Positions 17,284 through 23,325 of a stretch of DNA of 64,000 bases are shown here, one piece after another. A program made the translations under genes and the position numbers. Source of the DNA: an uncultured Pseudomonadota bacterium (lineage in GTDB: Bacteria; Pseudomonadota; Alphaproteobacteria; RF32; CAG-239); contig CAMRWU010000004.1 of NCBI GenBank assembly GCA_947054505.1, forward strand, positions 1 to 64,000, read 5' to 3'. Within the stretch, counting starts at the first letter, position 1. The number at the start of each line of letters is the position of its first letter. The notes beneath the pieces are model-generated. The model had not been told where the DNA came from. It made no database searches and worked only from the letters and a program-made list of their open reading frames with translations.

Positions 17284-17338
17284 TGCAATCATAAACGAGG
17301 CTTTCAACAGCCGCTTAATTGTTGCCACCGGCGGCTAG
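17284..17338. repeat. Short dispersed repeat, copy 1 (core GCTTAATTGTTGCC)
   Basis: A CTGCAA...GAGG segment leads into CCGCTTAATTGTTGCC, a short variable stretch and GCTAG. It is shared with two copies near 51.2 kb. It overlaps the stop codon of the minus-strand TPR gene by the palindrome CTAG. On the plus strand the core reads RLIVATGG then stop. Confidence 0.6.
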
Positions 17339-19131
17339 TCATCAGATTTTTGAATAAGGCGAATTTGTTTTTCGATGACTTCCTGATTGTATGTGAGTTT
17401 TGGTTCTTGTTTTAGACCTTCTTGTATCTTTTTCTGAACGGTATCTTTGTTAAGTTCTTTGCTGTCATCTTTGAGGCGAAGGGCGTGGCGCCATTGGAAG
17501 CCTGCTTCGTTTTTGCGGTTATTAAACCAATAGGCGTCACCCAAGTGATCGCAGATAACTGCATTGGATGGATCCGCTTCAGCGGCTTTTTCTAGGTAGT
17601 TGATGGACATTCTGTAGTAACCGAGATTATATAAAGCCCAGCCCAAACTGTCGTTAACATTGCTGTCATTTGGAGCTTGGTTATAGGCGTTAACAATCAT
17701 TGTGAATGCTTCGTCAATATTTTCACCGCGCCGCAACCAGCTATATCCCAGATAGTTAAGAACCATATAATGGTTATCGCTGAGTTCCAGAGCTTTTTTG
17801 AAAGAGTTTTCCGCTTTTTTCCACTGATTATCCTGCTCATAGGCAACACCCAAAGCATAATACAATATCCAGTGTTGGCTTTCGGGGTTGGAAAGTTTTT
17901 CAAGAGCTTTTTCATAATATTCGATGGCTTCTTCCGGTTTGTTTTTAACACGCAGAATATCGCCGATATTAAAATAGAGTTGATAGTTGTCAGAATCCAA
18001 GGCAATGGATTTGAGTAGTAATTCCGCGGCCGCATAATCCTGAGTTAAAACAAGGTTGTTGGCTTTTTTCAGCTGAACGGTGTAGTAGGCTTCAGAATCC
18101 TTGCCGATAGTGTCATATACATCATTGGCATCAGCATACATTTCTCTGTTTTCGAGAATATCGGCCAATAAAAGTTTTGCCAAATCATACTTAGGATTTT
18201 CGTATATCGACATTGCAATGAACATGTGTGCCAAATCAATCCCACCGACACCTTGGCGTAATGTTGCCGCAATGCTGAACAACGCTTCAGCCGCGCCTTC
18301 ATTCGGCGTTTGAATGATTTTTTTAGTATTGGACATTTTCGCGGAAGCAACATTTTTTTGAAGTTTGGCGAGCATTTCTGCCAATAGCTTTTCATCATTA
18401 TATTTATTGGCAATCGTGACGGCTTTGTCCTTTTGATCCGTACGCAGATAGAAGTTGCTGATGACTTGCAGTGCACGGAAAGACATTTCTAACTGTTCTT
18501 CGTTGACAATAACTTCATAATCGGTTTGAGCATCGCGCGTGCGATTGAAATAATCGTTAATCATCCCGCGATGAAAATGATACAAAGCGCGGAAACTGGG
18601 TTCTTTTTTTAACTTGTCAAGTTGTGCAAGGGCTTGATCCGGATTGTTCATACCGACCTCAGCCCAAGCGTTGAGAAGAGGATTGATAAATTCATTATAG
18701 ACGGGGTTGGTTGTTTTTTTCAGTATCGGAGCAACTTGAGAGTAATTTCCTTGTTTCAGAGCATCAACAGCCATAACCACCTGAATAAAGCTATTGCGGT
18801 CGCCGTTATCCCAAGCTTTTTGAGCATAAACAGCGGCTTCGTCAATGCGACCTTTAGAAACAAGGAGCAGATAGAGGCGGCTGACCAACTCAGGATTATT
18901 GGGATCGATTTTCAGGGCTTCGATATAATAGTCGGAAGCCTTGTTAAAGTCTCTCCGCAAATGTGCGACCCGTCCGGCCAAATATGAACCGTATGATTTC
19001 TGCGGTGTTGTTTTTTCCGAAACCGCCGGTGCTTGCTCTTCAATTTGAGCTTTGCGTCCGATGTTGTTTGAGCATGAACCGAAAAGGGCGATTGAAACCA
19101 ATAAAATGCCTAAAAAACCGAATTTTGCCAT
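17335..19131 (-). CDS. TPR-repeat outer-envelope lipoprotein
   Basis: This 598-aa protein has a lipoprotein signal (lipobox LFGSC, Cys20) and many tetratricopeptide repeats, clearest at residues 48-80 (SYLAGRVAHLRRDFNKASDY), 350-470 and 490-560. The repeats carry the usual A/G and P spacing (for example YEKALEKLSNP and FKKALELSDNH). TPR lipoproteins scaffold envelope or secretion assemblies, but the partner is not indicated here. The end of the gene runs into a short dispersed repeat. It is transcribed alone, divergent from the uracil-DNA glycosylase gene. Confidence 0.88.
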   Translation of the reverse strand: MAKFGFLGILLVSIALFGSCSNNIGRKAQIEEQAPAVSEKTTPQKSYGSYLAGRVAHLRRDFNKASDYYIEALKIDPNNPELVSRLYLLLVSKGRIDEAAVYAQKAWDNGDRNSFIQVVMAVDALKQGNYSQVAPILKKTTNPVYNEFINPLLNAWAEVGMNNPDQALAQLDKLKKEPSFRALYHFHRGMINDYFNRTRDAQTDYEVIVNEEQLEMSFRALQVISNFYLRTDQKDKAVTIANKYNDEKLLAEMLAKLQKNVASAKMSNTKKIIQTPNEGAAEALFSIAATLRQGVGGIDLAHMFIAMSIYENPKYDLAKLLLADILENREMYADANDVYDTIGKDSEAYYTVQLKKANNLVLTQDYAAAELLLKSIALDSDNYQLYFNIGDILRVKNKPEEAIEYYEKALEKLSNPESQHWILYYALGVAYEQDNQWKKAENSFKKALELSDNHYMVLNYLGYSWLRRGENIDEAFTMIVNAYNQAPNDSNVNDSLGWALYNLGYYRMSINYLEKAAEADPSNAVICDHLGDAYWFNNRKNEAGFQWRHALRLKDDSKELNKDTVQKKIQEGLKQEPKLTYNQEVIEKQIRLIQKSDD

Positions 19132-19271: not shown

Positions 19272-20087
19272 ATGATGACAGAAACAAGTTCGTTACAGGA
19301 AATTTTAGAGTGGTATATTTGCGCCGGCGTAGATGAAATCTGTGCGGAGGAGCCCTTTTTTAATATGCCGAAGCAAGCTTCTGCAATGCCTTCTGTTTCT
19401 GCGGAACCTGTCAAAAAAAATACACCGGCGGATACGCCGATGGTTCGTCATGCAACAACAGAACTGGCTCAGGCAACACAGACAGCTTTTCAAAATGCCA
19501 AAGACATATGTAGTAAAGTGACAACGCTTGATGAACTGCGGCAAGCAGTTGAAACGTTTGAAGGTTGTGCCTTAAAAATGACCGCCGCTCATACGGTTTT
19601 TGGTGATGGCAATCCTCAGGCCAGAGTTGTTTTTGTCGGCGAGGCGCCTGGGGCAGACGAGGATCGGATTGGAACACCTTTTGTTGGGCGTAGCGGTCAT
19701 CTTTTGAATAAAATGTTGGCGGCAATCGGGTTGGATAGAACCTCTTGCTATATCTGCAATATTTTACCGTGGCGTCCTCCTGGAAACAGAACGCCTCTGG
19801 ATTCGGAAATCGCCGTTTGTTTACCGTTTTTGAAAAAACAAATTGATTTAATAAATCCTGATTTTATTTTCACTCTGGGCGGAAGTTCTGCTAATGCTCT
19901 GTTGAACACCGCGGAGAGTATTTCCAGAATGCGCGGTCGGTGGTTGGAATATACCAAATCGGATGGTTCTTCTGCAAAGTTGTTGGCCAGTTTCCATCCG
20001 GCATATTTGTTGCGGACCCCCGGACAAAAGTCAAAATCATGGGCCGATTTCTTAAGGTTATCGAAAGAACTTAATAAAAAATCTTAA
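19272..20087 (+). CDS. Uracil-DNA glycosylase, family 4-like
   Basis: The protein is 271 aa, with a non-conserved 85-residue lead. The glycosylase core shows motif A GEAPGADEDRIGTPFVGRSG at 113-132, the WRPPGNRTP loop, and motif B HPAYLLRTPGQ near the end. It should remove uracil from DNA in base-excision repair. Family 4 enzymes bind a 4Fe-4S cluster through four Cys. Here Cys99 (FEGCALK) and the Cys of AVCLPF are present, but the partner positions are Phe95-Glu-Gly (first Cys lost) and Trp in LPWRPP. The cluster may therefore be absent or differently ligated. An expressed enzyme is likely because the active-site motifs are intact. Confidence 0.88.
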   Translation: MMTETSSLQEILEWYICAGVDEICAEEPFFNMPKQASAMPSVSAEPVKKNTPADTPMVRHATTELAQATQTAFQNAKDICSKVTTLDELRQAVETFEGCALKMTAAHTVFGDGNPQARVVFVGEAPGADEDRIGTPFVGRSGHLLNKMLAAIGLDRTSCYICNILPWRPPGNRTPLDSEIAVCLPFLKKQIDLINPDFIFTLGGSSANALLNTAESISRMRGRWLEYTKSDGSSAKLLASFHPAYLLRTPGQKSKSWADFLRLSKELNKKS

Positions 20088-20174
20088 ATGTTATGAATTA
20101 TTTCACTATTTGATAGTAATTTATAAAAATAATATTATTATGAAACAAAAGTTTTAATAATTAAGGGAAGTCAA

Positions 20175-20882
20175 ATGAGAAAAAAAGTAATGCTACCTTT
20201 GTTGGTGTTGGGAGCGTCTTTGGTTGCCGGAAGTGTACGCGCCGAGGACAATGTTTTATTTAAGCTTCAAGATATTGTTCCTGTGAAAAATGCCGATGGT
20301 TTGGTGACCTCTTGTGATTTCGGAGCAACTTTTTATAACCGTTCCAATGTGGAATTGGCTTCTGCGACATTGACACTTGTTTGGCAAGATGATGTTGTCG
20401 CTGACGCCATTGATCAGGAAGCGCGCAACGAGCGTGAAGATCGTCGGTTGAACAAAAACACTTCTTCTCGTTACAAAACTTCCAGTCTGAGCAATAAAGA
20501 CGTCAAGTTGACATTGAAGCTTCCGCCGCTGAAACCGCATCAACAGGTTTCCTTAAAGTCAAAAGTGGCGACGGAACGTTGCTTCCTTTTGTTAAATGAT
20601 GTTGACATTCGCGTTTCCAATTGTCGTACCAGCACCACGAGTGAGAACGGCAATCGCAATAGCTCGAACAGCGGTTGTCAGGATTTATTTAAATTCGTAA
20701 CCATTAACAATCCGGAATACTATTCTGAATTTAAGGAAGTTTCTGATGCAGACTTGCAATCAGCCGAATATTCTCAGCTGGAGCAAAAGAAAAATGATTT
20801 GCAAAGTCTGTATAATGACACCCTTAATGAAATAAACAGAGTGACTTCCAATTTTAATTATGTTAAGGAAAATCTGGATTAA
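20175..20882 (+). CDS. Secreted protein A of a paralogous pair, unknown function
   Basis: This 235-aa protein has a signal peptide cleaved near SVRAED (residue 23) and a GGGAAG ribosome site. The body looks beta-rich: LVTSCDFGATFYNRSN, LTLVWQDD, then LKPHQQVSLKSKV, a Cys (TERCF), IRVSNCR, and a second Cys shortly after. The last 50 residues are a heptad-like coiled coil (LEQKKNDLQSLYNDTLNEI). The order of features matches the next gene: tSCD strand, LvW strand, C, i-V-x-x-C-R, then C. The two are probably paralogs. They sit in one operon with a lytic transglycosylase, which suggests a shared periplasmic or cell-wall-linked job, but no function is known. Confidence 0.8.
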   Translation: MRKKVMLPLLVLGASLVAGSVRAEDNVLFKLQDIVPVKNADGLVTSCDFGATFYNRSNVELASATLTLVWQDDVVADAIDQEARNEREDRRLNKNTSSRYKTSSLSNKDVKLTLKLPPLKPHQQVSLKSKVATERCFLLLNDVDIRVSNCRTSTTSENGNRNSSNSGCQDLFKFVTINNPEYYSEFKEVSDADLQSAEYSQLEQKKNDLQSLYNDTLNEINRVTSNFNYVKENLD

Positions 20883-20894
20883 GCGGAGGTTCTC

Positions 20895-21563
20895 GTGACA
20901 AAAGCATCCCTGAAATATATTCTTTCGGCAATTTTTTTATGCGCGGCATCAGCTGTATGGGCTCAATCTTTTGGCGATTCTGCCGAAGATGCCGTTCCAT
21001 TGTCGGAAGTAAAAGGTGTGCAGGGAATTGCAGAAGCCGTGGATGCCCAACCTCCTGTATCGGAGAAAACTCCTGCCGTTACCAATACAGATAATGTTCA
21101 AAAACCGGACGAAGAAAAAGAGGAAATTTTTATTCCAGAAAATGCTTTCCAAAAGCCAACGTTGGATGGTTCTAAGCGTGGCGGTTCCGTTTTTTCACGA
21201 TTAAATGATGAAGGTCAATCCGTTGTTGTCAAAAACAAGATTTTTCTGTTTTATAAAGACTTTCATATTAACCGCAGTATCTCGGGGATGACTTCCTGTG
21301 ACGTTTCGTTTTTTGTTGTTACAAATCTGGATCGCCGGTTGATAAATCTTGATGTAAAATTAGTCTGGCCGGAAATGACAACCACTGTTTCTTTTACAAA
21401 CGTACAGCCAAACACACAAACATATTACAATTATGCTTTGATGGGGGATGGTTGTTATAGTATGGATAAAATGCCCAACATCATTGTTAACCGTTGTCGG
21501 GTTAAGGGGATGACTTCCGCCGAATGTGCTTCTAATATCGTGTGGTTAAAAGACCTGAAATAA
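20895..21563 (+). CDS. Secreted protein B of a paralogous pair, unknown function
   Basis: This 222-aa product starts at a GTG with GGAGG 5 bases upstream, 12 bp after the previous stop. A signal peptide ends near AVWAQS (residue 24). A Pro/Glu-rich linker of about 80 residues follows, then a domain with GMTSCDVSFFVVTN, DVKLVWPEMTT, a Cys in GDGCYSM, IIVNRCRVKG and a final Cys. These elements align in order with the preceding protein, including the LVW strand and the conserved Cys positions. It lacks that protein's coiled-coil tail. The even Cys number in the domain suggests disulfides. Confidence 0.78.
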   Translation: MTKASLKYILSAIFLCAASAVWAQSFGDSAEDAVPLSEVKGVQGIAEAVDAQPPVSEKTPAVTNTDNVQKPDEEKEEIFIPENAFQKPTLDGSKRGGSVFSRLNDEGQSVVVKNKIFLFYKDFHINRSISGMTSCDVSFFVVTNLDRRLINLDVKLVWPEMTTTVSFTNVQPNTQTYYNYALMGDGCYSMDKMPNIIVNRCRVKGMTSAECASNIVWLKDLK

Positions 21564-21573
21564 GAGGTTGGAA

Positions 21574-23325
21574 GTGCTAAAAAAAACGTCAGCCGTCTGT
21601 CTGTTTGTTTTGTGTTGCCTGCAAGTTTTCTGCGCGCAAGCAGAAGAAAGTTGCAATTTGGACGTTATCAACCCGACAGTCTATAATAAAATTCTTGACT
21701 ATCTGTTGATTGATAAGAAAGACGTCACCCGTTACAAAAAAGCATTTCGAGCCGTTGATGCCGCAGATTTCTCAAAAGCTGACGATGTGTTGTCTGACTT
21801 GGGAAACAACATCATCTTAGGGCATGTTCTGGCTGAAAAATATCTGCACAAAAATTATAAAGCCTCGTTTGCCGAACTGCAAGAATGGTTAGAGAAATAT
21901 TCTGATTTGCCGCAGGCGAACCGGATTTATAATCTGGCTTTGAAAAAAGGCAAAGCCTCATCACTGACAAAACCCCGTCAAATGTCTGATTGTTCTCGTA
22001 TTTTAGGATGGAAAGACGAGGATCTAGAGCATCTTTTTCCGGCAGATATGCACTATCTTGTGCAACAGGTTGCCAAATTTCGCAAAGCTTTGCGTAGCGG
22101 AAAAACCAAAGCGGCTCGTCTGATTTTGGAGCAAAATAAATTCAGACAAAAAGCGCCTAACAAATATTGGGATGAATTGGCCGCTTCTTTGGCTATGAAA
22201 TATCTTGTTGACAACCAAAACAAATTGGCTTGGGAATGGGGGGTACGAGCCTCCAAAAGGAAAACATCTGCCGTTGCGCCATGGGTAGCAGGTTTGTCTG
22301 CTTGGCGGATGAAAAATTATAAAAGCGCGGCAACCTATTTTTCCCGTCTTGCTCAGTTGGGGAACTCGGATGATTGGCTGGTTTCTGCCGGTGGTTATTG
22401 GGCTTATAGGGCATATACGCGTTCCGGTCAAAAGACTTTGGCGAAACAAATGTTAAAACAGGCCGCGCAATACCGTCACACATTTTATGGCATTTTGGCC
22501 GCTTATAAAGCCGGACAACCCCTGACATATCATTGGGATGCCGTTGCTTATTTGAACAATTTTAATTCTCTGGATTACGTTTATGAGCTTCTGGGATCAC
22601 CATCCATTCGTCGGGCGATTATTCTCTTGCATGCCAAACGAAAAGATTTAGCTGAACAAGAGTTGAAGCGTGGTTATTATGAAATGACGGACAAGCAAAA
22701 AGAGGCAACGCTCTACATTGCCAACCAATATCATATGCATGCGTTGGCAATCAGAGTATGCGGTGATTTGAACCGGCCGGAGGAGGATATGTCCTATGAT
22801 GGTGTTGCTTATCCGACACCGTCGTGGATTCCCGATGAAAACTGGCAGGTTGACAAGGCATTGGTTTTAGCTCTGATAAGACAGGAATCCGGTTTTAAGC
22901 CCGAGGCCAAAAGTCCGGCCGGTGCGCGCGGATTGATGCAATTGATGCCCAATACGGCATATCATGTGACCAAAGACATCACGATAAAAAAAGACAATCA
23001 AAAATTACTCAAACCTGAGGTGAGTATTGAGATTGGGCAACGCTATGTCAACTATCTTTTGAACAAGCCGTTCATTGACGGAAATCTGTTTTATATGATG
23101 GCGGCTTATAACGGTGGTCCGAGTAACCTCTTACGCTGGGAAAAGACCGCAAAATATGGTAATGATCCGTTATTGTTTATTGAGGTTATCCCCTCAGCCG
23201 AAACCCGAATTTATATCGAACGGGTTATGGCCAACTATTGGATATATAACATGAAATTTAATTTGCCCAACCCGACATTACAACAAGTCGCAGAGGGACG
23301 CTGGCCGGTATTGCCCAGAGATTAA
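21574..23325 (+). CDS. Soluble lytic murein transglycosylase (SLT family)
   Basis: I start this at the GTG at 21574, because an AGAGG box lies 6 bases upstream; the TTG at 21568 abuts that box. The 583-aa protein has a signal peptide (cut near FCAQAEES) and a long alpha-helical solenoid resembling the U-domain of Slt70. The C-terminal SLT domain has the catalytic Glu438 in IRQESGF, then GARGLMQLMP and MMAAYNGGPSN. It should cleave the MurNAc-GlcNAc bond of peptidoglycan in the periplasm with 1,6-anhydro formation. It is co-transcribed with two small secreted paralogs. Its stop codon directly abuts that of the convergent recG. Confidence 0.95.
   Translation: MLKKTSAVCLFVLCCLQVFCAQAEESCNLDVINPTVYNKILDYLLIDKKDVTRYKKAFRAVDAADFSKADDVLSDLGNNIILGHVLAEKYLHKNYKASFAELQEWLEKYSDLPQANRIYNLALKKGKASSLTKPRQMSDCSRILGWKDEDLEHLFPADMHYLVQQVAKFRKALRSGKTKAARLILEQNKFRQKAPNKYWDELAASLAMKYLVDNQNKLAWEWGVRASKRKTSAVAPWVAGLSAWRMKNYKSAATYFSRLAQLGNSDDWLVSAGGYWAYRAYTRSGQKTLAKQMLKQAAQYRHTFYGILAAYKAGQPLTYHWDAVAYLNNFNSLDYVYELLGSPSIRRAIILLHAKRKDLAEQELKRGYYEMTDKQKEATLYIANQYHMHALAIRVCGDLNRPEEDMSYDGVAYPTPSWIPDENWQVDKALVLALIRQESGFKPEAKSPAGARGLMQLMPNTAYHVTKDITIKKDNQKLLKPEVSIEIGQRYVNYLLNKPFIDGNLFYMMAAYNGGPSNLLRWEKTAKYGNDPLLFIEVIPSAETRIYIERVMANYWIYNMKFNLPNPTLQQVAEGRWPVLPRD

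Follow-up and report, generated by a model that had tools for sequence, protein, structure and literature searches.

Why two genes for small, putatively exported proteins should lie directly ahead of a wall-cutting enzyme is the question raised by the locus described here, found in a 64,000-nucleotide stretch (hereafter, the window) of contig CAMRWU010000004.1, which belongs to a genome of 1.49 Mb; its closest named relatives are Alphaproteobacteria that have not been cultured and come from samples of gut and rumen. The two genes, A and B, are followed by the gene of a soluble lytic transglycosylase (SLT), and an earlier note on this DNA had proposed that they form an undescribed periplasmic module in which a pair of beta-sandwich proteins might guide or regulate the SLT. 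The reading that we favour, with a probability of about 0.45, is that of a duplicated immunoglobulin (Ig)-like pair, the B half of which is an old partner of the SLT, with a further role in the envelope that would be independent of the SLT. In what follows, genera, genomes, and loci are labelled g, G, and L, respectively, followed by a number.

Relationship between proteins A and B

Both proteins carry the same elements in the same order, just as the earlier note had described them, with the series TSCD (C47 in A, C135 in B), LVW (W70, W158), a second cysteine (C136, C187), VxxC (C150, C201), and a last cysteine (C168, C211) being exact. In addition, they share the spacing between the first cysteine and the tryptophan (23 residues) and that between the second and third cysteines (14 residues), with A showing around 37 extra residues between the tryptophan and the second cysteine relative to B. 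The four cysteines were invariant in 32 A and 33 B sequences, and also in 20 diverse A and 17 diverse B members; a further cysteine of B, C16, lies within its signal peptide. Two DsbA-like proteins encoded in the window genome could form the disulfides.

At the level of raw sequence, the kinship is unproven, with a non-significant BLASTP match between A and B (E 0.18), and comparison of A and B profiles from the same genus gave a probability of only 8% (E 0.0042). Nevertheless, hhalign comparison of diverse A and B profiles yielded a probability of 95.7% and an E value of 8.8e-9, with the four cysteines in register and a score of 62.8 for the real pair, against 12.5 and 13.3 for reversed profiles and at most 20.6 for 30 column shuffles. 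Cross-matches between the A and B profiles were also detected in four genomes (E 3e-4 to 9e-4) and in several loci, and the single-copy protein of L144, from another order, matched both profiles (4.4e-35 for B, 4.4e-7 for A). The SLT profile was matched by neither family. Judging from these alignments and from the models described below, A and B are true paralogues, which agrees with the proposal of the earlier note.

AlphaFold2 models, built on 17 alignment rows each, showed a mean predicted local distance difference test score (pLDDT) of 74 for A and 69 for B, with a predicted template-modelling score of 0.55 for both; averaged per ten residues, the pLDDT was around 84 to 90 over most of residues 31–90 and 111–150 of A and 83 to 95 over residues 111–220 of B. 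In both models, strands 1–3 and strands 4–5 are followed by a short helix that starts from the second cysteine and by strand 6, which ends at the third one, with the fourth cysteine held in a short helix after it (strands of A at residues 27–38, 44–55, 61–71, 109–116, 124–131, 144–152, and 172–174). Beyond this shared frame, A has an extra helix behind strand 3 and another at its C-terminus, and B has a long disordered N-terminal linker. The likeness of the folds was judged from the order of these elements and from the same first fold match, described below; the two proteins are predicted to form the same beta-sandwich, and the difference in fold that would have refuted the proposal of the earlier note was not seen. 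The coiled-coil tail noted earlier in one of the proteins was modelled as a single helix in A, and the long acidic linker noted in the other corresponds to that of B, which contains 17 D/E and 8 K/R in 89 residues and is disordered over residues 24–75.

Variants of both ends were seen among the relatives. In g31 genomes G091, G092, and G095–G097, A is found in open frames of around 400 to 460 residues, compared to around 235 in the window, and that of L123 carries a C-terminal extension rich in proline and alanine. The mature N-terminus of B (window 20964–20975) begins, after the predicted cleavage site and ahead of the linker, with a Gln-x-Phe(-Gly) sequence that is conserved in the order; those single-copy proteins of other orders that were read do not show it.

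Fold matches and family assignment

No credible match was found for A or B in Pfam and NCBIfam scans, nor in Pfam scans of 17 diverse B and 20 diverse A members, where the best stray match had an E value of 0.0043 in one A member. Profile searches of the PDB sequences up to E 10 gave none for A2 and A3 and one unrelated chain (E 0.2) for A1. A and B thus appear to belong to an unnamed family, which agrees with the earlier note, where the module was called undescribed. Neither model had a Foldseek match with E ≤ 0.001, a result that does not exclude a known fold.

With VIA-align, the first match of both models was IrmA (5ek5), with a Z score of 8.9 in each case and root-mean-square deviations of 3.6 over 110 residues for A and 3.9 over 103 residues for B, followed by ApaG, sugar-binding, and transglutaminase domains. 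As Z scores below or near 8 are common, we read A and B as Ig-like sandwiches and no more. For B, ApaG is in this second tier (Z 6.9 to 7.2, root-mean-square deviation 2.8 to 3.9); no Pfam match to the ApaG family was found in A or B, and we take ApaG to be a protein that is not exported and lacks the four-cysteine frame.

The fold matches bring in two other explanations. The first is that the domains are modules binding wall sugars, aiming the SLT or the pair itself at the peptidoglycan; the weak matches of both models include domains that bind cellulose or chitin and the N-terminal domain of a GH20 hexosaminidase, but their Z scores of 6 to 7 are graded as common by the tool and no Foldseek match reached E 0.001; we consider this explanation improbable. 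The second is that A and B are secreted, IrmA-like factors acting on the host. IrmA of E. coli is a secreted protein, described (PMC5810482) as a domain-swapped dimer whose Ig fold is of the fibronectin III-like type, and its place as first match in both models, together with the gut and rumen origin of the named relatives, would fit such a role. However, any likeness would be at the level of the fold only (Foldseek E 0.018 to 0.033); no IrmA appeared in the PDB profile searches A1, A2, and A3, and the gene context is another one, A and B being core genes syntenic with envelope genes, so we regard a host-directed role as highly improbable.

Distribution and gene order

The presence of A and B was analysed in 153 genomes of the window's order (109 of high quality), 385 of the class, and 398 of the phylum. 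A was found in 145 of the order genomes (107 of high quality) and B in 142 (105 of high quality). The eight genomes without A also lacked B, and none had a B match with no A. Three genomes showed A only, two of them because of contig ends (G066, G140) and the third, G068, with a divergent B that was detected afterwards. In the class sample, B was present in 15 genomes, five from the window's order and ten from six other families, whereas in the phylum sample just the window's own genome matched, a result that says little of other classes, as the window's own class accounts for many of the genomes shown. A and B are therefore core to the window's order, with scattered relatives in the class.

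The arrangement of the window, with A, B, and SLT on the same strand and tightly spaced, is as first noted: 12 bp separate A from B and 4 bp (from the TTG start) or 10 bp (from GTG 21574, in line with the roughly 10 bp noted earlier) separate B from the SLT. Within the window's genus, the order A-B-SLT was found in 76 of 76 loci, which overlap and come from around 34 genomes, and a gene encoding a family 4 uracil-DNA glycosylase (UDG) was upstream in 75. For the order as a whole, 113 loci were compared (112 fetched plus the window, with the remainder of the window's genus left out). Both genes were present in 111 of them, always on the same strand, with a gap of −1 to 84 bp (median of 13), and the UDG was upstream of A in the loci reaching far enough, bar a few contig ends.

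At a profile cut-off of E ≤ 1e-20, the SLT was detected in 89 of the 153 order genomes (70 of 109 high-quality ones). In the genera that bear it, the gene follows B directly in 55 of 57 loci; of the two exceptions, G104 yielded no SLT, its contig ending just past B, and G090, an assembly with 8% contamination, has its match on another contig. Apart from G090, the SLT was not seen well away from A-B in the order. Outside the order, a single B-like gene was present in each of ten loci from six families, with the SLT directly next to it in nine, including L149, where the SLT is split over two frames; the UDG was upstream in just two of the ten.

In contrast to this linkage, no SLT was found in any of the 56 A-B loci of genera g26, g27, g30, g37, and g40, nor did the SLT profile match elsewhere in the genomes of these genera at the same cut-off. 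Some SLT domain was present in 36 of their 39 high-quality genomes, nearly always in short proteins of around 200 to 290 residues, similar to the second SLT-domain protein that the window genome encodes (626 residues in G129; none in G061, G070, and G169). The linkage to the SLT gene in other genomes, on which the earlier note had made its proposal depend, was hence recovered in the SLT-bearing genera and in most loci of other orders, but is absent from five genera. Because these five keep A and B without the enzyme, the pair must do more than regulate the SLT: of the module proposed earlier, the paralogous beta-sandwich pair stands, but not its dedication to the SLT.

In 22 of these 56 loci, a tolQ gene (MotA/TolQ/ExbB family) was found downstream of B (3/3 in g26, 16/18 in g27, and 3/23 in g37; among others, L113, L114, L117, L152, L155, L158, and L159), with a frame resembling a small membrane protein between both genes and, in L152 and L113, tolR-like and tolA-like genes after tolQ. 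A and B could then be an accessory of the Tol-Pal constriction machine, the SLT being a wall-cutting arm dropped by some lineages. Nonetheless, tolQ was absent from the 57 loci of SLT-bearing genera, although these reach just a few kb beyond the SLT, both MotA/TolQ/ExbB genes of the window genome are on other contigs, g30 and g40 have different neighbours, and old neighbours may simply have been joined when the SLT was deleted, so an accessory role for Tol-Pal seems quite unlikely to us. In one g40 locus, the neighbour of B on the opposite strand encodes another wall-cutting enzyme, an AMIN-domain amidase (PF01520; L115:3983-5245).

History of the pair and loss of the SLT

As just one B-like copy exists outside the order, directly ahead of the SLT in most loci, A is probably the derived copy and a single B before the SLT the old arrangement. 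In a weakly supported tree of the domain with long branches, the A rows came together, joined by one long-branched single row, and nine of the ten single-copy rows grouped with B. On the simplest reading, an old single B with its SLT was followed by the duplication that gave A in the order, and later by loss of the SLT. This loss was one-way and took one or two events: a tree of UDG plus A requires two changes if rooted on the f2 row and one if the root is placed between the SLT-bearing and SLT-less groups. We do not claim two independent losses over a single one, as the f2 row sits on a very long branch and the tolQ neighbour common to g26, g27, and g37 suits a single loss.

Mean pairwise distances in SLT-less versus SLT-bearing groups were 1.72 versus 1.11 for B, 0.58 versus 0.59 for the UDG, and 1.38 versus 1.52 for A. 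The distances of B had suggested its release from constraint after the loss of the SLT, but this explanation was rejected, since most of the signal disappeared once branch lengths were measured on a fixed tree. The distances of A and B correlated beyond those of the UDG (partial r 0.38), a value reached by none of 2000 label permutations, which ignore descent.

Several observations weigh against B as a partner of the SLT, or A as a partner of B. The rate of B relative to the UDG was 0.96 and 1.10 in SLT-less groups and 0.79 to 0.92 in SLT-bearing ones, that is, hardly higher, so B was not clearly freed from a constraint set by the SLT, and the B domain is still canonical after the loss in g26, g30, and g40. 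In addition, the partial correlation between A and the UDG, given B, was also 0.38; co-evolution of A and B is therefore not special, and the mirror-tree signal was discarded as evidence of contact between them. Finally, the UDG, surely no partner, is linked to the pair just as tightly, and hence synteny alone proves little.

These same facts would suit an SLT that is a syntenic passenger, merely co-transcribed with an envelope pair that has an unrelated job, e.g., in the assembly of the outer membrane or the surface. Such a pair could be retained without the SLT, as in the five genera, could have a DNA repair enzyme equally conserved beside it, and would show no clear change in the constraint on B after the loss. 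On the other hand, among the ten loci from six families of other orders, nine have a B-like gene directly before the SLT and just two have the UDG upstream, which makes B-SLT the more stable link across orders; within the window's order, the SLT hardly occurs except beside A-B. On balance, a passenger SLT is a possible but rather doubtful explanation.

Proposed role of the pair

In the reading that we favour, the ancestral gene would have encoded a single exported, disulfide-stabilised Ig-like protein, whose duplication gave A and B. In other orders of the Alphaproteobacteria, the single-copy, B-like form would most likely be a periplasmic partner of the Slt70-type SLT, whereas the order of the window would have turned this single gene into the A-B pair, most likely a heterodimer in which sandwich pairs with sandwich. 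The C-terminal helix of A would serve as an additional arm for oligomerisation or docking, and B could reach for partners with its disordered linker. Where the SLT is present, the pair would bind it, and either recruit or restrain it. A second envelope partner, independent of the SLT, would complete the picture: the pair would have been kept after the loss of the enzyme because it also binds something else in the envelope.

A broader proposal is that A and B form an obligate heterodimer on which factors of wall remodelling and constriction dock in general, with the SLT as one exchangeable client of this hub; we consider this unlikely, and equally so its corollary that in the five SLT-less genera the hub still serves other clients.

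Within the linker of B, a DG[STV]xRG motif was found in 25 of the 57 B proteins of SLT-bearing genera and in none of 54 from SLT-less genera, a difference confounded by descent. It was tried as a docking site for the SLT and rejected, as it is missing from SLT-bearing g32, g36, and g38, from f2, and from the other orders read; given its absence from these groups, the motif may just mark descent.

The locus and its neighbours

The features of the locus are compiled in Table 1. A, B, and the SLT all appear to carry Sec-type signal peptides, judged by eye, which fits the earlier assignment of A and B as exported. For the SLT, the start at GTG 21574 is more likely, giving a cleaner signal peptide 10 bp past the stop of B. 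The UDG, separated from A by 87 bp, is probably a unit apart from the A-B run; a promoter-like match lies at 20110, inside this gap, although the region held no more of these matches than chance would give (12 versus 8.7 expected, standard deviation of 3.9). Further upstream, a large TPR-repeat protein of 598 residues with many TPR matches is encoded on the minus strand (17335–19131) and read away from the UDG, and a large minus-strand frame occupies the same place in most order loci.

Table 1. Features of the A-B-SLT locus and its upstream neighbour, with positions in the window.
Feature	Position	Strand	Details
Family 4 uracil-DNA glycosylase (UDG)	19272–20087	+	PF03167 E 1.8e-36; TIGR00758 E 2.3e-61
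Gene A: signal peptide, Ig-like beta-sandwich (predicted), C-terminal helix	20175–20882	+	ATG start, 235 residues
A beta-sandwich domain (predicted), residues 25–177	20247–20705	+	Cys 47, 136, 150, 168, Trp 70; AlphaFold2; hhalign to B
A-specific inserted helix (predicted), residues 73–92	20391–20450	+	Between strands 3 and 4; AlphaFold2; missing from B in the hhalign alignment
A C-terminal helix (predicted), residues 191–234	20745–20876	+	44 residues; AlphaFold2; conserved YY-EF-K stretch ahead of the helix
Gene B: signal peptide, then acidic linker (disordered) and Ig-like beta-sandwich (both predicted)	20895–21563	+	GTG start, 222 residues
B linker, residues 24–111, mostly disordered	20964–21227	+	pLDDT <50 at 24–75 and 86–96 (AlphaFold2)
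DGSKRG motif in B linker, residues 91–96	21165–21182	+	DG[STV]xRG type only in SLT-bearing genera
B beta-sandwich domain (predicted), residues 112–217	21228–21545	+	Cys 135, 187, 201, 211, Trp 158; AlphaFold2
Slt70-type soluble lytic transglycosylase (SLT)	21568–23325	+	TTG start, 585 residues; PF01464 93 bits vs. cut-off of 21.3, residues 424–529
Predicted catalytic Glu440 (RQES)	22885–22887	+	E440 and S441 invariant in 16/16 SLT proteins

The SLT resembles E. coli Slt70 and Caulobacter SdpA/SdpB in its PF01464 match, far above the cut-off, its RQES motif, and a putative long helical N-terminal part. Slt70 (1qsa) aligned to its residues 256–576 with phmmer (E 1.8e-24), and NCBIfam PRK11619 matched residues 171–564, below its own cut-off. 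Glu440 is presumably catalytic, as in the lytic transglycosylase family. In the nearest relative (L061:4888-6672), the SLT occupies two open frames, possibly because of a frameshift or an assembly error. An apparent fusion of B and SLT in G152 (open frame of 818) was discarded, as a TAG stop ends B ahead of the start of the SLT. The difference from described Slt operons lies in the A-B pair ahead of the enzyme, an arrangement that, to our knowledge, is shared by none of them; no paper on this gene pair was found in the open-access literature.

Relation to known systems and significance

A precedent in the class for non-enzymatic partners of transglycosylases is DipM of Caulobacter crescentus, reported (PMC10336132) to be a non-enzymatic periplasmic protein that binds the soluble lytic transglycosylases SdpA and SdpB and stimulates one of them. 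By analogy, A and B may work like DipM, as non-enzymatic periplasmic partners. The scaffolds are different: DipM uses an inactive LytM domain, whereas A and B are a paralogous pair with a predicted Ig-like domain without a Pfam match, and no LytM (M23) domain was found in either of them by Pfam scans. The tolQ neighbour of the SLT-less loci hints at a constriction-related setting, although it may just reflect the genes that lay beyond the deleted SLT.

In conclusion, if the reading that we favour is true, a core, unnamed envelope pair would be carried by an entire alphaproteobacterial order of gut and rumen, perhaps doing a DipM-like job on another scaffold, and genes now annotated as hypothetical would receive names and a testable role. 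The lineages would provide a natural experiment, with one copy and the SLT, the pair and the SLT, or the pair alone, and their comparison could show which protein contacts the SLT and what else the pair holds.

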